Below are positions 13,666 through 21,964 of a stretch of DNA of 23,575 nt, piece by piece (within the stretch, counting starts at the first letter, position 1; each line of letters begins with the position of its first letter). The DNA lies in the IMG/VR virus record IMGVR_UViG_3300032213_001433, positions 1 through 23,575 of that record. The stretch is one strand, 5' to 3'. Origin of the DNA: a virus. Under the pieces are notes generated by a model. The model searched no databases and was not told the origin of the DNA. It saw nothing but the letters and a program-made list of their open reading frames with translations. The translations under genes were made by a program, and so were the position numbers.

Positions 13666-14099
13666 CCGCGAACACGCAACCTATTTTTCCCTTAATTCCC
13701 AAGGTGTCTTGGGGAACCGTTACAACCGCCAATACCGCAAAGGATGGCACAGGCACCGTCGTCACCGTCTTTACGGCAGGAGCTGACGGGTCACGGATTG
13801 ACCAAATCAAGGTTCGCGCACTCGGTACCAACGTTGCCACTGTCATAAGATTTTTCGTCAACAATGGCTCGACGAACGCAACCGCGGCCAACAACTCTCT
13901 GGTACACGATACCACGATCGCGGCCACGACCAACTCCGAGACGGCGGCACTGGTGGACAATAATATCTTACTAACAATCAACACAACCGAAACCGTCCCA
14001 CCGATTCCGTATCTACCCGCGGGTTACAAGATTAATGTCACCATAGGCACAACCGTCGCGGCTGGTCTCCAGATCACCGTCTGGGGAGCGGATTATTAA
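13662..14099 (+). CDS. Hypothetical tail/fibre beta protein
   Basis: This 145-aa Thr/Ala/Asn-rich protein has the conserved-looking segment TANTAKDGTGTVVTVFTAGA, then DGSRIDQIKVRALGTN and VIRFFVNNG. I recall similar small proteins in tail modules of many phages without known function. It is predicted to be mostly beta strand, compatible with a jelly-roll fibre tip or accessory head-group. There is no signal peptide or catalytic motif. Its start and stop are both coupled to neighbours (ATGA, TAATG), placing it firmly in the tail operon. Confidence 0.6.
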   Translation: MTANTQPIFPLIPKVSWGTVTTANTAKDGTGTVVTVFTAGADGSRIDQIKVRALGTNVATVIRFFVNNGSTNATAANNSLVHDTTIAATTNSETAALVDNNILLTINTTETVPPIPYLPAGYKINVTIGTTVAAGLQITVWGADY

Positions 14100-15064
14100 T
14101 GTCTTTTAACGACGGGATAATCCAAAAGCCAAATATCCTCGACAAACAAAAAAAGAAAAAATACGCCAGCTTTAGCCCTTTATTCCGACCTCGCCAACCA
14201 AAGGAAGCTCTAGAAATCGAAGTGGAGTATCTCGTCATCGCTGGCGGTGGTGGAGGTGGTGGAGCAGGTGGCTCTTCCAACGCATCAGGAGGCGGAGGAG
14301 CTGGGGGTTATCGCTCCTCGGTCACAGGCGAAAACTCTGGTGGCGGCGCGTCTGCCGAAACCAAAGTCAAATGGAAGTTTGCCCAAAGCTACACCGTCAC
14401 AGTCGGCGGCGGAGGGTCTGGAGGCACATCCACCAACCGCGGCACTGACGGAACTGGCTCCACTTTCACTGTCACCTCAACAGGAGGGGGCGGTGGCTCA
14501 AGTCCATTTAGCGGCCAACCCGCTCAAACAGGAGGCTCGGGTGGTGGTGGAGGCTCCTCTACAGGCACCGCGGGAGCTTCGGGAACCACGAATCAAGGTT
14601 TCGCAGGAGGCAACGGCGGAGCCAACGGAGTCACTGGCGGCGGTGGTGGAGCTTCGGCAGTTGGAGTCAACGGAGACGCAGGAGCGGCGAGAAAAAGCGG
14701 AAACGGTGGCGGAGGGGTCTCTTCATCCATCACAGGCTCAAGCACAGCAAGGGCTGGTGGCGGAGGTGGCGGTCAAGGCTCACTCGCTTTTGCCATCGGC
14801 TCAGGTGGCACTGGTGGCGGAGGGAATGGCGGACTATCAGGGACAGCAGGCGCGGCAGGGACAGTCAACACAGGTAGCGGCGGCGGTGGCGGAGGCAATG
14901 GTTCGGTAGGTGGCAACGGTGGCTCTGGCGTGGTCATCCTCAGATACAACGCGGCTTATCCAGACTTAAAATCCATCGGAGCAGGACTAACATTTTCCTT
15001 GACCACTAGCGGAGGCTTCAAAATCTACACTTTTACGGCAGGTACCGACTCCATTACGATATGA
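14099..15064 (+). CDS. Glycine-rich tail adhesin-like protein
   Basis: This 321-aa protein starts with a basic segment (residues 1-35). The glycine-rich domain begins VEYLVIAGGGGGGGAGG (about residue 42) and ends GSGVVILRY near residue 284, bracketing many G-rich runs separated by Ser, Thr and Asn loops. This is the layout of Gly_rich domains in tail fibres and is comparable to the polyglycine-II sandwich of phage S16 gp38 adhesin. A short beta domain (FSLTTSGGFKIYTFTAG) ends the protein. Receptor binding is a family-based inference; loops between Gly runs would set specificity. A second long frame in the same stretch is a composition artefact. Confidence 0.8.
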   Translation: MSFNDGIIQKPNILDKQKKKKYASFSPLFRPRQPKEALEIEVEYLVIAGGGGGGGAGGSSNASGGGGAGGYRSSVTGENSGGGASAETKVKWKFAQSYTVTVGGGGSGGTSTNRGTDGTGSTFTVTSTGGGGGSSPFSGQPAQTGGSGGGGGSSTGTAGASGTTNQGFAGGNGGANGVTGGGGGASAVGVNGDAGAARKSGNGGGGVSSSITGSSTARAGGGGGGQGSLAFAIGSGGTGGGGNGGLSGTAGAAGTVNTGSGGGGGGNGSVGGNGGSGVVILRYNAAYPDLKSIGAGLTFSLTTSGGFKIYTFTAGTDSITI

Positions 15065-16561: not shown

Positions 16562-17347
16562 ATGATCGTAGGCTTAGACATCGGCCGCTCAAGCGTCAAA
16601 GTGTTCACAGGCGACAAAATGGAGCATTTTCCCTCTTTCCTCGGCGAGTGGCGAAAACGAAAACTCTCCTCTGAACACAAGGATGACATTGAGGTGGAGT
16701 TTCAAGGCGAGAAGTACTTCGCGGGTGCGTTGGCTCAAAACGAATCAGAGTTTGCCAGAAGTATGATGACAGAAGAAAAGGCTCACTCCGACACTCTCCT
16801 GCTCGCCTTGATCGCGCTTCACCGCGTGACCACGGAGGCGAACATCATCACAGGGTTACCCGTCTATCTCCATGACACGGAGCGGAAAAACGCACTCAAG
16901 CAACTCTTGAGAGGCAATGGAAAGTGGGAAATCACGGTCAACGGAGTCAAAAAGACCATCTCCGTCCCGCGGATTGAAGTGGCGGTAGAAGGTGGCGCGG
17001 CGTTCTGGTCCTCTCCACGGGATGGACTGGTCAGAGTCATCGACGCGGGTAGTCGCACCGTGAACTATGTGACCCTCAAAGACAAAAGATACGTCGATCG
17101 GGACTCCGGGACGCTCCCTTTCGGCTTCGGGACTACTATCTCAGGCGACCTCCGTCAAATGGCCGCTCGTATCGCAGGCGAACTCGGGAGAAAATGGAGA
17201 GAGACGGATGCCGTCCTAGTCGCTGGGGGTAGGGCGGAGGAACTGGCAAAGGAGTTGAAGCAATATTTCCCACAGACTGAGTGCTTCGTGAACCCACTTT
17301 TTGCCAACGCCATCGGCTACTACCGAATAGGACGGAAACTCCTATGA
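16562..17347 (+). CDS. ParM/Alp-like actin ATPase
   Basis: This 261-aa protein has the actin-fold nucleotide motifs in order: phosphate-1 GLDIGRSSVKVF (residues 4-15), a VEGGAAFW segment (142-149), phosphate-2 RVIDAGSRTVNYV (158-170), adenosine motif VLVAGGRAEEL (218-228) and a connect-2-like NPLFANAIGYYRIG (244-257). Such proteins polymerise to push plasmid or phage DNA apart; AlpC of a Corynebacterium prophage is one phage example. It is about 60 aa shorter than typical ParM, with little sequence between the phosphate-2 and adenosine motifs, so part of subdomain II may be reduced. It is coupled by ATGA to a small partner gene. Confidence 0.85.
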   Translation: MIVGLDIGRSSVKVFTGDKMEHFPSFLGEWRKRKLSSEHKDDIEVEFQGEKYFAGALAQNESEFARSMMTEEKAHSDTLLLALIALHRVTTEANIITGLPVYLHDTERKNALKQLLRGNGKWEITVNGVKKTISVPRIEVAVEGGAAFWSSPRDGLVRVIDAGSRTVNYVTLKDKRYVDRDSGTLPFGFGTTISGDLRQMAARIAGELGRKWRETDAVLVAGGRAEELAKELKQYFPQTECFVNPLFANAIGYYRIGRKLL

Positions 17348-17547
17348 AAAACTTCAAACGCATGCACATCGTTTTTAACCTCGACAATCCGCACCAGAGA
17401 GAGCTGTTCGAATGGTGCATGTCGCAGTCAACCAACTTCTCAGGCTTCGCCAGATCAGTCCTTTTCGCCTACAAAGAACGCACTCCCTCCGCTCCAGTCA
17501 TCACCCACTCTTCCGACGACTCTTCCGCGATGGCTGACCTACTCTAA
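17344..17547 (+). CDS. Small ribbon-helix-helix-like partner of the actin (ParR candidate)
   Basis: This 67-aa protein has a short strand (KRMHIVFNLD, residues 4-13), two helices (HQRELFEWCMSQS, then FSGFARSVLFAYKE, to about residue 46) and a Ser/Asp-rich disordered tail ending DSSAMADLL. Strand-helix-helix is the layout of CopG/ParR-like DNA-binding dimers. In ParMRC systems ParR binds parC and its C-terminal tail caps the actin filament, so the acidic tail fits. The frame extends back to 17281 but the ATG at 17344 overlaps the actin stop. I cannot exclude an unrelated small protein. Confidence 0.6.
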   Translation: MKNFKRMHIVFNLDNPHQRELFEWCMSQSTNFSGFARSVLFAYKERTPSAPVITHSSDDSSAMADLL

Positions 17548-17679: not shown

Positions 17680-18957
17680 ATGCTACTTGAAATCATCGGC
17701 TCATTAGGCGCGGCTGGACTGCTCACATACACTCTCGTTGAGCAGAATGCCTCCCTCACCGACGCAGGCAAGATTCAGAGGGTGGCCAACAACTGCGGAC
17801 TCACCATTTCGGAGAAGGGTCGCAAGCAAACGATTCATCTCCTGCGGAAAAGTCGCCATGCGTGGGGGAGCGAATACGTCTACCGCATCCCTCTTGGACT
17901 CTCGTTTGATGATGTCCAGCGCAAAAAGTCCCACATTGAAGATGGGCTTAACCACAAGAGAGGAGTCTTGGACTTAACCTTGGATGATTTCCTCTCCCTC
18001 GACCTGAAGCAAGACCTCCTGACGCAGATCAGGAAGCTCCTGACGTCCACCAAACACAAAAAAGAGATTGTGATGGAGTACGACGGCACCTTGAAAATCA
18101 AAGTTTACCACGACCCGATGCCCGAGCGAGTCAATTTTCACTCTGGCAGAGACTGGAAAGTGTGCGTCGGGGTCTCCAGAGAGGGACTCGTGTATCACGA
18201 CTTCGAAACCATCCCTCACATGGTAGTCGCGGGCATGACTAGATACGGGAAATCAGTGTTTTTGAAGAACATCATCACCAGTCTCATCGCTCAACCCGTC
18301 ACCTTTACCCTTGTAGACCTTAAAGGTGGCCTCGCGTTTAACCGTTTCTTAAGCGTCTCCAAGGTGGAAACGGTAGCATCCGACGTATCCGAAACACTGA
18401 CGGCTCTGAGGGGCATTTCTGACGCTCTGAAAGCCAAGCAGAAAGAGTTGCTCAAGATGAAAAAAGAGGACGTGAAAGAGTCTAGCGACCGCACGAGACA
18501 CTTCATCGTCATCGACGAGGGCGCGGAAATCGCGTCACAGGGCGAAACTAATGCGGAAAGAAAGAAAATGAAAATTGAATGCGAGCAAATCCTTGGAGAG
18601 ATTGCGAGAATCGGCGGGGCGTTGGGGTATCGGCTTATATTTGCGACTCAGTATCCGACCGCGGACACTCTGCCCCGTCAGGTCAAACAGAACGCCGATG
18701 CGAGACTGTGCTTCCGCTTACCCACAGAAACTGCCTCAAGGGTGGTGCTAGACGACTCTGGAGCGGAGACGCTTCCTTTAATAAAGGGTAGAGCCATCTA
18801 CCGAACTGACCGTGTCACCATCGTGCAGACGCCATACGTCGAAAACAACTATATAGATGAGGCGATACGACCTTACATCACAATCAAGCCTCGGAAGGAG
18901 GAGTATGAGAAACCACGAGAGAGACGAAATGATACTCTCATCATTGAAGAAACTTGA
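17680..18957 (+). CDS. FtsK/SpoIIIE-like DNA translocase (TcpA-type coupling protein)
   Basis: This 425-aa ATPase has a short hydrophobic N-terminus (residues 5-20), a Walker A GMTRYGKS (185-192), the downstream LVDLKGGLAF and a Walker B HFIVIDEGAE (274-283). It then has LIFATQYPTADTLPRQVKQN, a typical FtsK-HerA segment. Members pump double-stranded DNA; in Gram-positive plasmids TcpA is the conjugation coupling protein, and B. anthracis gamma-type phages carry FtsK-like genes near their lysin (from memory). It lacks the long linker and gamma domain of cellular FtsK. GGAGGTGG precedes the start. The next gene begins inside its 3' end. Confidence 0.9.
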   Translation: MLLEIIGSLGAAGLLTYTLVEQNASLTDAGKIQRVANNCGLTISEKGRKQTIHLLRKSRHAWGSEYVYRIPLGLSFDDVQRKKSHIEDGLNHKRGVLDLTLDDFLSLDLKQDLLTQIRKLLTSTKHKKEIVMEYDGTLKIKVYHDPMPERVNFHSGRDWKVCVGVSREGLVYHDFETIPHMVVAGMTRYGKSVFLKNIITSLIAQPVTFTLVDLKGGLAFNRFLSVSKVETVASDVSETLTALRGISDALKAKQKELLKMKKEDVKESSDRTRHFIVIDEGAEIASQGETNAERKKMKIECEQILGEIARIGGALGYRLIFATQYPTADTLPRQVKQNADARLCFRLPTETASRVVLDDSGAETLPLIKGRAIYRTDRVTIVQTPYVENNYIDEAIRPYITIKPRKEEYEKPRERRNDTLIIEET

Positions 18958-19498
18958 CTATCTATCACGGAGTCAGCTCCAGAAGCTCCATAGTCTCGGA
19001 GGCGAACGGAACGCACGTAGGGTCATGGCGTCGCTAGGGGACTATCTATCGAGCTTCCGCGGCGACAATGGGGAGAGCATCTACTATTTGACCAAGGCTG
19101 GCCGTGAGCGAGTGGGGGCGGATAAAGTAAGGGCTAAGCTAGCGGATGCGAATCACTATTTGATGCGAAACGATGCGTATCTATTTTTTAAAGGGAACGA
19201 TTGGAAAAATGAGATGAAATTTACGATTCCCGGGACTGTGCAGGTCATCCCAGACGCCTATTTTATGCTCAATATGCGGAGGCATTTCCTCGAAGTCGAC
19301 CATCTCCAGAGCATGGCGAAGAACAAGGAGAAGCTGGAAAAATATCGCAAGCTCAAGTCGTCGAATCTCCTACAAGAGCGTCTCCGATATTTTCCCGCAC
19401 TCATCTGGGTCACCTTGACGGAGACGCGAAAAAAACAATTGGAAAATTGGTCAGAAGGATTAGAAACTAAAATATACTTATGGCAAGAAATCAAATAG
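18905..19498 (+). CDS. Replication-relaxation family protein
   Basis: This 197-aa protein has an N-terminal winged-helix-like region (DEMILSSLKKLDYLSRSQLQ, then HSLGGERNARRVMASL and IYYLTKAGRERVG) and a C-terminal alpha-beta domain. The latter contains IPDAYFMLNMRRHFLEVDH and a lysine-rich helix KNKEKLEKYRKL. The P-D...E-x-D plus downstream Lys/Tyr pattern is seen in replication-relaxation proteins and recalls PD-(D/E)XK nucleases. Such proteins are found next to FtsK-like genes on Gram-positive plasmids and phages and may act in DNA mobilisation or replication. AGGAGGAG supports the ATG at 18905; an upstream start at 18857 lacks such a site. It overlaps the FtsK-like gene by 53 bases. Confidence 0.8.
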   Translation: MRNHERDEMILSSLKKLDYLSRSQLQKLHSLGGERNARRVMASLGDYLSSFRGDNGESIYYLTKAGRERVGADKVRAKLADANHYLMRNDAYLFFKGNDWKNEMKFTIPGTVQVIPDAYFMLNMRRHFLEVDHLQSMAKNKEKLEKYRKLKSSNLLQERLRYFPALIWVTLTETRKKQLENWSEGLETKIYLWQEIK

Positions 19499-19510
19499 GA
19501 GGAATGGAAA

Positions 19511-19930
19511 ATGAACATTACAATGGGCGTTAAAGGTGGCGAAAGAGTCAGTCTGACTCAGGCAGAGGCCATCATCATGGAGAAGGTTAAGCTCGACCCC
19601 AAGCTAGGCAGAATCGCGGGACTACTCCCTCTAGGCATACTGGTCACTTCCATCCCACATCATGCGTTTGCCGCTCCTGAGGCGGTGCCTGTTATCGGGG
19701 GAGCTATCAAAGACAAAATCATCCACTCGTTTGACCCGTTGATTGACCTCATCCAAGCTCTAGCCTTCCCGATCGCTGGCGTCATGATCGCAGGGGGATG
19801 CCTGTTTATCATGGTAGGCAACCGTGAGCGTGGGATGCAGATGCTCCAAAATGCGGCAATAGGTTATATCCTTGTCCAACTGTCACCTTTAATGTTAGAC
19901 TTGCTGGTAGGAATTGGGCAGTCTGTTTGA
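19511..19930 (+). CDS. Secreted two-helix membrane protein, VirB2/TrbC pilin-like
   Basis: This 139-aa protein has an N-terminal charged stretch and a hydrophobic segment (about residues 36-50) ending HHAFA-A, a good signal peptidase site around residue 54. Two transmembrane helices follow (about 79-102 and 114-136) joined by the charged turn GNRERG. Long leader plus two helices is the layout of VirB2/TrbC type IV secretion pilins and of related small conjugation membrane proteins. I cannot confirm family membership from sequence alone. AGGAGG lies just upstream, 12 bases after the previous gene, so it belongs to the same operon. A second holin is an alternative, but the leader and long N-terminus argue against it. 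Confidence 0.6.
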   Translation: MNITMGVKGGERVSLTQAEAIIMEKVKLDPKLGRIAGLLPLGILVTSIPHHAFAAPEAVPVIGGAIKDKIIHSFDPLIDLIQALAFPIAGVMIAGGCLFIMVGNRERGMQMLQNAAIGYILVQLSPLMLDLLVGIGQSV

Positions 19931-19994: not shown

Positions 19995-21398
19995 CTAGGT
20001 CAATTCTAGATCTGTGATGGTGAGGACGGCCTGCTTACCAGGGCTTCCTCTCCCTTGCGACACAGCCATCACGGTGATGGACTTAAACAGTTCCCTGACG
20101 AACATTTTCTTCTCGCGATCTTCGGCATGGCTCCAGAGATCGTTCAGCTCATTCAAAGTGTTAAGAATTTCCTTTTTATCAATCGACGGCTTCACGGTCT
20201 TAAGCTCAGATTCAATCTCAGCTTCCCGCTTGACATCTTCCGCGATACGGTCTTTATAATCCTGGAGAGAGATGGCATCGTCTGCATAGGCGATTTGCCA
20301 TTTCTTTTTGCGTTTCCTTAAAGATTCAAGCTCACTTACAAGCTTATCTTTCTTCTGGCCATCGTCGGTGGTGACATTGAAATATTTCCGCATCTGCTCG
20401 GAGTCGTACTTGATCGACTCCAAAAACATCTCCTCGAGTCGAGTTGATTTGACGATGGGCTGTTTGCAGTCGTTATAATTTGCCCTGCGGACACATCTAT
20501 AATACTTTGATTTATTGGCTGAGAACCCCACCATAGCAGACCCACATCTGGCACACTTGAGAATCCCAGAAAAAATGTGATCGGAGACGACCGTCTTGCC
20601 ACCCTTGGAGCGGGACGCAATCTCATGATTGACCTTTTCAAACGTCTCCGCGGAGATTATCGGCTCGTGATCGGCCTCGGCCAGAATTTCCTTGCCGTCT
20701 ATTTTTCCTCCAGAACGATGGTTCCATCTTAGCTTTCCAGTATAAATGGGATTCATTAGGGCGTACCTCACCGTCGAGTAGCTCCAGAGACGATCGGGAT
20801 ACTCTTGATTTATTTTTATGGCGATGCCGCGGAACCCTTCCAAACTTTGATACATGTCAAATATCTTGCGTATGACCTCAGCTTGGGACTCCACGACCAC
20901 AAGCTTCCCGTCCCTCAACTCATACCCATAGGGAGCTTTGGCACCGTTCCTCATGCCTTTTAAGTGGCGCTCCATCATCACAAAATGAACCCTTTCGCTG
21001 ATCTGCTCGCGCTCGAATTGGCCAAGGAGAACATTTAAGCCAACGTTAAAACGATTAAAGGCAGTCTCCTCGTTGGTGTTTTCTCCGATGGCACTTCTCA
21101 ACTTGATTCCTTTGGTCAAGTCCTTGAGCTGATGCCAATCTTTACCTTGGCGTGTCCATCTGTCGAGCTTCCAAAAGGCAATAAAGTCTGGCTTAGTCTG
21201 GGGAAGCTCCTGTATTAACCTTTGCAGATCGGGGCGATTGAGATTCTTGGCAGAGTAGCCATCATCAATGTAGACCCCATCGCAAGTGGCTTCCCACTCC
21301 TTAAATTTGCGGTCTAGCATCGCTTTTTGGGCTTGGATAGAAAAGCCCTCTATGGCCTGTTCCTCATCAGATACTCGAATATATTGTATGCCTCGCAT
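19995..21398 (-). CDS. int: Large serine recombinase (phage integrase)
   Basis: This 467-aa enzyme should join attP and attB through a 5' phosphoserine and excise with a directionality factor. The resolvase domain begins YIRVSDEEQ with catalytic S10; it also has DGYSAKNLNRPDLQRL and WKLDRWTR. A recombinase domain follows (AKAPYGYELRDGK through IYTGKLRW). The zinc ribbon cysteines are at C282, C285, C302 and C311, followed by a coiled coil at about residues 345-420. The frame extends upstream to 21461, but the ATG at 21398 starts at the family's usual place and has AGGTGA just before it. It is convergent with the pilin-like gene. Confidence 0.95.
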   Translation of the reverse strand: MRGIQYIRVSDEEQAIEGFSIQAQKAMLDRKFKEWEATCDGVYIDDGYSAKNLNRPDLQRLIQELPQTKPDFIAFWKLDRWTRQGKDWHQLKDLTKGIKLRSAIGENTNEETAFNRFNVGLNVLLGQFEREQISERVHFVMMERHLKGMRNGAKAPYGYELRDGKLVVVESQAEVIRKIFDMYQSLEGFRGIAIKINQEYPDRLWSYSTVRYALMNPIYTGKLRWNHRSGGKIDGKEILAEADHEPIISAETFEKVNHEIASRSKGGKTVVSDHIFSGILKCARCGSAMVGFSANKSKYYRCVRRANYNDCKQPIVKSTRLEEMFLESIKYDSEQMRKYFNVTTDDGQKKDKLVSELESLRKRKKKWQIAYADDAISLQDYKDRIAEDVKREAEIESELKTVKPSIDKKEILNTLNELNDLWSHAEDREKKMFVRELFKSITVMAVSQGRGSPGKQAVLTITDLELT

Positions 21399-21443
21399 GT
21401 CGTCACCTGTTAGTTTTTGTCGTATCGTGTCGGTAAATGCACA

Positions 21444-21472
21444 TTGCAAAAAAGAACGCATATTCGTATAAT
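21444..21472 (+). promoter_or_regulatory. Strong sigma-A promoter for the 41-aa gene
   Basis: TTGCAA (21444-21449) and TATAAT (21467-21472) are separated by 17 bases. AACGCATATTCGTAT (21455-21469), similar to the immunity operators, overlaps the -10 box, so the phage repressor may control it. Confidence 0.75.
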
Positions 21473-21505: not shown

Positions 21506-21631
21506 ATGGATAAAGAAATTTCTGAATTTATCATAGAGGCGAATGATGACGAAAAAAATAAATTTATCGACTTTTTACGTCAATTTGCAGAGGCGAACAA
21601 ACTTATTGATTTGATTTCTGAAAGCGAATGA
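21506..21631 (+). CDS. 41-aa acidic peptide between integrase and repressor
   Basis: The peptide starts MDKEISEFIIEANDDEKNKF and ends LIDLISESE. It is acidic and probably a pair of helices. An AAAGGAAGTG site lies about eight bases before the ATG, a near-consensus promoter lies upstream and a terminator overlaps the stop, making it a complete one-gene unit. Its 3' end overlaps the convergent repressor gene by 29 bases. I do not recognise it. A regulator of lysogeny or a small partner of the integrase or repressor would fit the place, but nothing in the sequence shows this. Confidence 0.65.
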   Translation: MDKEISEFIIEANDDEKNKFIDFLRQFAEANKLIDLISESE

Positions 21632-21911
21632 ACTTTAGAATTTCTTTTTTTACATTTTCATCTAAGTTAAGTAGTTCCTGTAGGATCCTAGTTTCAAGCT
21701 CGCTTAATTTTTCCTGTTTACCCGTCAAAAGCCACTCAACAGAAACCTCATAAAGTTTAGCCAATTCAGCCAAAGTGTCCGTGTCTGGATCGCGGTATTC
21801 CGTCTCATACCCAGAGAGAGTAGGGATGGAAAATCCCATGATTCTACACACTTCTCGCTGTGTCATTTTCTTCTTTTGTCGAGCTTCTTTTAACCTGACT
21901 CCCAGACTCAT
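21603..21911 (-). CDS. XRE-family repressor (CI-like)
   Basis: This 102-aa protein has a clear N-terminal HTH_3 domain: LGVRLKEARQKKKMTQREVC, recognition region GFSIPTLSGYETEYRDPD, then LAELAKLYEVSVEWLLTG (residues about 3-65). A short helical tail (LSELETRILQELLNLDENVK) probably dimerises. It lacks a peptidase domain, so induction would not be by LexA-like self-cleavage. The start is placed at the ATG at 21911, five bases after GGAGTGA; the frame extends to a GTG at 21950 without a comparable site. It is divergent from the Cro-like gene across a region with several operator-like palindromes. Confidence 0.9.
   Translation of the reverse strand: MSLGVRLKEARQKKKMTQREVCRIMGFSIPTLSGYETEYRDPDTDTLAELAKLYEVSVEWLLTGKQEKLSELETRILQELLNLDENVKKEILKFIRFQKSNQ
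21616..21651 (+). terminator. Terminator of the 41-aa gene, inside the repressor 3' end
   Basis: TTCTGAAAG (21616-21624) pairs with CTTTAGAA (21633-21640), eight pairs with one bulged G and an 8-base loop. TTTC and a T7 run (21645-21651) follow. It would stop + strand transcription before most of the repressor gene is read antisense. Confidence 0.65.
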
Positions 21912-21964
21912 TTTAATCACTCCTTCGACAATAATATCACTATTCACCAAACGCGAAAATAATA

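Follow-up and report, generated by a model that had tools for sequence, protein, structure and literature searches.

A pilin-like membrane protein gene linked to DNA-pump ATPase and relaxase genes in phages of the Bacillus group

The DNA analysed here, called the window throughout, is a stretch of 23,575 nucleotides that corresponds to positions 1 to 23,575 of the IMG/VR virus record IMGVR_UViG_3300032213_001433. The gene under study is preceded on the same strand by genes for a ParM-type actin-like protein, a small RHH-like protein, an FtsK/TcpA-like DNA-pump ATPase and a MOBC-type relaxase (Table 1). The serine integrase gene and the repressor-like ORF found downstream make the window phage look temperate. 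The window also encodes its own holin and endolysin, and a glycine-rich ORF (14099-15064) lies between the tail and lysis genes.

Table 1. Positions in the window of the pilin-like gene, its parts and its neighbours
Feature	Position	Strand	Basis and remarks
ParM-type actin-like protein (ALP_N)	16562-17347	+	95.8 bits, cut-off 26.3
Small RHH-like protein	17344-17547	+	Ribbon-helix-helix fold inferred from sequence
FtsK/TcpA-like DNA-pump ATPase	17680-18957	+	FtsK/SpoIIIE domain; N-terminal hydrophobic segment
MOBC-type relaxase	18905-19498	+	Replic_Relax PF13814, 60 bits, cut-off 25.3
Ribosome-binding site AGGAGG	19497-19502	+	Sequence; overlaps relaxase gene end
Pilin-like membrane protein gene	19511-19930	+	139 aa, ATG start; profile matches, dN/dS 0.028-0.077
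Leader, residues 1-54, ends AFA, then A55	19511-19672	+	Sequence; candidate cleavage site
First mature membrane helix, about residues 81-101	19751-19813	+	Hydrophobicity and AlphaFold2 model
Short charged turn, residues 102-108, VGNRERG	19814-19834	+	Model and family alignment
Second mature membrane helix, about residues 111-137	19841-19921	+	Model and family alignment
Serine integrase	19995-21461	opposite	Downstream of pilin-like gene
Repressor-like ORF	21603-21950	opposite	Downstream of pilin-like gene

Only 12 nt separate the stop of the relaxase gene from the start of ORF 19511-19930, and a scan for promoters and terminators gave results at about chance level. The dN/dS values against two relatives (0.028 and 0.077) indicate that the ORF is a real, constrained gene, and it is under purifying selection. 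Within the leader a hydrophobic stretch covers about residues 35-53, with AFA (52-54) right behind it, and two further hydrophobic segments follow at residues 76-104 and 114-138, with the charged turn between them at 103-108 by this measure (GNRERG). AlphaFold2, with 65 relatives as input, placed helices at residues 64-73, 75-101 and 105-138; the block means of pLDDT were 88-98 over residues 71-130, the last nine residues reached 81, and the leader was modelled with low confidence. Three residues of the second mature helix, G118, Q123 and P126, show little or no variation within the family.

Of 91 relatives, 61 carried the AxA signature behind the leader, where shuffled tails would give 43.5; the signature is thus enriched but not universal. 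We also observed that a leader motif, of the form F-x-x-F-M-x-G or EVVPES-x-YT, is common among the relatives (loci L010-L107, L135 2940-3212 and L137 2508-2846); vB_BhaS-171 has it too, in a protein with two helices that is encoded upstream of its ATPase. Loosely defined, one or the other form occurs in 67 of 93 sequences, but not clearly in the window protein. The sharing of this motif suggests that the leader itself may have a function.

Among the neighbouring genes, the one for the RHH-like protein is conserved beside the module in many loci, and its product in the window had no match in Pfam. The best solved relative of the ATPase is the coupling protein 6o1z (E 6.6e-24, versus 4e-11 for FtsK); the 'DNA translocase coupling protein' chains 6o1w-6o1z are presumably TcpA of pCW3. 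Its domain, its closest structure and its N-terminal anchor mark this ATPase as a putative TcpA-type coupling protein. The relaxase residues D117, E130, D132, K143 and Y147 are invariant in 37 phage sequences. PF13814 stands for the MobC relaxase superfamily in PMC5357655, and PD-(D/E)XK nucleases are relatives of the MOBC enzymes (PMC12857230). On the grounds of the PF13814 match and the conserved acidic nuclease residues, the protein is a putative MOBC relaxase that is predicted to nick DNA. These data agree with a preliminary description of the locus, which had reported a long leader with AFA-A at its end, a short charged turn between two membrane helices and, next to the gene, a TcpA-like ATPase and a relaxase-like gene; the VirB2-like layout that it proposed is supported.

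The same description had considered such a layout rare for a phage, which proved wrong, as relatives were found in 67 phage records, nearly all from Bacillus-group hosts. Further relatives came from 78 IMG/VR loci and 26 Bacillales genome loci. Removal of cores more than 90% identical left a non-redundant set of 96 loci, in which the pilin-like gene is accompanied by both ATPase and relaxase (76 loci), by a TcpA-like ATPase only (five) or by a second ATPase type (12); one locus is at a contig edge, and two without partners (L021 and L133) are short fragments that are probably degraded. A DNA-pump ATPase therefore adjoins the pilin-like gene in 93 of the 95 evaluable loci. A search started from the ATPase found the pilin-like gene in 76/76 collected loci with enough downstream sequence, a count that is no census, the ATPase-started loci being the closest 80 of 331. 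The phages Pony, vB_BhaS-171 and PK3.6 retain ATPase and relaxase but lack the pilin-like gene; in these phages a different small hydrophobic protein is encoded immediately upstream of the ATPase.

Several loci depart from the common arrangement. Two pilin-like genes or fragments lie close together in L025, L053, L067, L080 and L124, and a variant represented by L112, L127, L121, L123 and L111 has an RHH-like gene immediately ahead of a shorter ATPase, which is followed by the pilin-like gene with no relaxase between. The 'Staphylococcus' phages MVC_VPHSA1/2 (L026, L233, OR670592.1, OR670591.1) have split genes and are Bacillus-phage-like, with about 69% nucleotide identity to vB_BpsS-36; either the assigned host or the quality of the sequences may be questionable.

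A second version of the module was detected in D6E, TP-84, 035JT001 and vB_BpsM-61, where the pilin-like gene is followed by an ATPase of 700-750 aa with Walker motifs. The corresponding D6E gene, ORF23 (L015 6147-8405), is annotated as an MsbA lipid A exporter in GU568037.1, and its product groups with phage VirD4/HerA-like ATPases. All five parts of the window module were matched in SPO1 (L022, FJ230960.1, 4830-10234; L234 320-1144): gp29.1 is a relative of the pilin-like protein, gp27.9 is ParM-type, gp27.8 is RHH-like, gp27.4 is an ATPase of the second type, unlike the window motor, and gp27.3 matches Replic_Relax with E 2.9e-12. The relaxase residues D, E, D, K and Y are kept in gp27.3 and in PJN02. 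In our view, the recurrence of the five-part set with a different motor is the strongest evidence for a shared function.

To place the pilin-like family, profile searches and profile comparisons were combined. The window protein matched the Pfam family T4SS_pilin (PF18895) with E 2e-5 and 25.0 bits, below the cut-off of 26.6, and did not itself match TrbC/VirB2 (PF04956) in Pfam. Across 65 family members, counting matches at E 0.01 or better, 51 matched T4SS_pilin and 18 matched TrbC/VirB2, and any other Pfam family was matched by at most three. In a smaller set of 21 members these numbers were 20 and 10, with a best E of 3.3e-6, and none of 16 reversed sequences of family members gave any match. 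When the phage family was aligned by hhalign with ten Bacillota pilin-like hairpins gathered from Bacillales genomes, the result was a probability of 67% (P 5e-5) with the helix-turn-helix in register, versus 0.1-1.2% for the controls, which were reversed profiles and 40 phage holins. Two of these hairpins (L223 and L225) adjoin apparent conjugation genes, whose PrgI-, VirB6- and VirB4-type appearance in sequence was not confirmed by Pfam. The T4SS_pilin model also gave 31.8 bits, above its cut-off, for a 292-aa transporter-like protein (L228, L229), which is likely a false positive.

Neither the single protein nor profiles of the family retrieved anything relevant in sequence searches against solved structures, and Foldseek (PDB, BFVD) and VIA-align returned generic helical hairpins, which are non-discriminating, with no pilin among the matches listed. 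A holin identity was rejected because the family matched no holin family in Pfam or PHROGs and hhalign gave 0.2% against the 40 holins. Judged from the profiles, the phage family and T4SS pilins are remotely homologous, and their similarity goes beyond hydrophobic composition. As the Pfam score of the window protein falls short of the cut-off and the fold searches were uninformative, we call it 'pilin-like': it is not a pilin member by the curated Pfam threshold, and not a proven pilin.

The proposal of a type IV secretion pilin in the preliminary description consequently stands as a remote, specific similarity to T4SS pilins and falls short of Pfam membership for the window protein; the profile comparison that it suggested favoured T4SS pilins over all controls, and the contrary outcome that it named, a best match to a holin or other membrane family, was not seen in Pfam, PHROGs or hhalign. 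The structural agreement with a pilin that it called for did not appear among the listed Foldseek and VIA-align matches. An operating type IV pilus or secretion apparatus is not supported. Complete relatives were searched for VirB4 (AAA_10, PF12846), VirB6 (TrbL, PF04610) and VirB8 (TpcC, PF12642), the window's own record being a fragment, and in 13 complete phage or plasmid records none scored above the cut-off. The module is therefore not a full T4SS, and this candidate was rejected.

Our preferred reading, which we hold to be somewhat probable, is that a compact DNA-translocation module, carried by phages and derived from conjugation parts, has the product of this gene as its small membrane subunit. 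In such a module, the relaxase would nick phage DNA at an oriT-like site, a membrane-anchored hexameric ATPase would pump the DNA, and the pilin-like protein, in oligomeric form, would make up or line a passage in the cytoplasmic membrane, or dock the motor there. Since ATPase and relaxase have to be produced inside the infected or lysogenic cell, movement of phage DNA outward or from compartment to compartment would be favoured over genome entry. It is a more doubtful proposition that Bacillus-group phages, lytic ones included, transfer their DNA without virions by means of this pilin, relaxase and pump of conjugative origin; the DNA may go, for example, to an adjacent cell or a daughter cell, or into the forespore when the host sporulates. 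Almost all hosts of the phages with the pilin-like gene are endospore formers, which would fit DNA movement into the forespore, although host phylogeny confounds this association.

Several observations argue against a translocation module. The operon occurs in lytic phages such as SPO1, for which conjugation would have no obvious use; Pony, vB_BhaS-171 and PK3.6 do without the pilin-like gene, and five loci do without the relaxase. The sub-threshold Pfam score of the window protein, the likely misfire of the T4SS_pilin model on a transporter-like protein, the structure searches that listed no pilin and the lack of VirB4-, VirB6- and VirB8-like genes in the 13 complete records also count on this side. 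In addition, the comparable relaxase-translocase-anchor operon of 0305phi8-36 is dispensable in culture according to a review (PMC4113786), which also describes the FtsK-type gene of phage Fah as a delayed gene.

It is possible, although unlikely, that the genes serve instead the replication and segregation of a plasmid prophage, with ParM, RHH-like protein, ATPase and nickase keeping or resolving an extrachromosomal prophage and the pilin-like protein merely anchoring the ATPase at the membrane or septum, without transport across the envelope. The position of the ParM-type and RHH-like genes directly upstream in the window, and their presence in SPO1, D6E and PJN02, are consistent with this, as are the relative on the 43-kb element pGspE55-2 and the opinion of the Bolokhovo/Novomoskovsk authors, who see remnants of plasmid replication and segregation (PMC9658697). 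However, phages, among them the Andromeda group, retain the pilin-like gene together with the ATPase, in many cases without ParM, and ParM-type matches were detected in 10 of the 96 loci, an undercount owing to short flanks. Moreover, the window phage has a serine integrase, and a leader plus a pilin-like hairpin exceed the needs of an anchor.

A role in genome entry, in which a virion-borne pilin-like protein would serve as cytoplasmic-membrane conduit at ejection and the ATPase would pull the rest of the DNA in, appears quite improbable. TP84_47 (L024 5863-6243) was detected by MS with at least two peptides in purified TP-84 particles and is among the 14 listed structural proteins of that phage, but its partner ATPase, TP84_48, was not detected in the particles (PMC5889276). 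This particle evidence comes from one phage, and membrane fragments can contaminate preparations; for other relatives, virion proteins are documented by gels only (PMC6483233). The authors of the Pony study proposed a DNA-injection role for its FtsK-like protein (PMC3853050); yet a Sec-type leader would be odd for a packaged protein, and a nicking enzyme would be unneeded. Finally, an unrelated small membrane protein (holin-like, antiholin or superinfection-exclusion) with convergent resemblance to pilins is very improbable, for although short hydrophobic hairpins match easily, Foldseek was uninformative and the window protein is below the Pfam cut-off, reversed sequences and holins do not match, the window already has a holin and an endolysin, and the linkage to two types of DNA-pump ATPase is near-strict.

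A 2025 review stated that VirB2-type pilins do not occur in Gram-positive T4SSs except in Patescibacteria (PMC12857230). Against this statement, we find a pilin-like family that is conserved across Bacillales phages and tied to DNA pumps and MOBC-type relaxases, for whose use export, genome entry and plasmid-prophage upkeep are the candidates. The single parts, and even a similar operon, are already known, and the module is easily overlooked because its parts are annotated singly, as FtsK, 'replication-relaxation' or hypothetical proteins. The pilin homology with its controls, the linkage over about 95 loci and the five-part set of SPO1 are not described in the limited collection of literature that we found. 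Because SPO1, a model phage with a laboratory host, has the module, its function can be tested directly.

Among known systems, the 'DNA translocation operon' of the Bacillus thuringiensis phage 0305phi8-36 (Pathria et al. 2012) would be comparable, as far as a review describes it, and its deletion had no detectable effect on growth (PMC4113786). The likeness to the Tcp system of pCW3 lies in the ATPase, which is closest to coupling protein chains 6o1w-6o1z, whereas the full Tcp channel is absent from the phage module, with no TcpC/VirB8-like gene in the 13 complete records. With the MOBC relaxases of mobilizable elements that have their own coupling protein (pAD1 TraX, CloDF13 MobC), the phage relaxase has PF13814 and the PD-(D/E)XK-type residues in common; unlike them, it is phage-borne and accompanied by a pilin-like gene, and its nicking activity is predicted. 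The VirB2/TrbC and T4SS_pilin pilins, including L223 and L225, share the charged turn, the two-helix hairpin and, in some, a leader, but the phage family has a longer, partly conserved leader and no VirB4 or VirB6 partners, its partner being a TcpA-like or VirD4/HerA-like ATPase. Archaeal Ced/Ted DNA import resembles the module by description, as it also relies on an FtsK/HerA-type ATPase with few partners. The same description applies to Streptomyces TraB and Thermus TdtA (PMC5365140), in which an FtsK/HerA-type ATPase likewise works with few partners.
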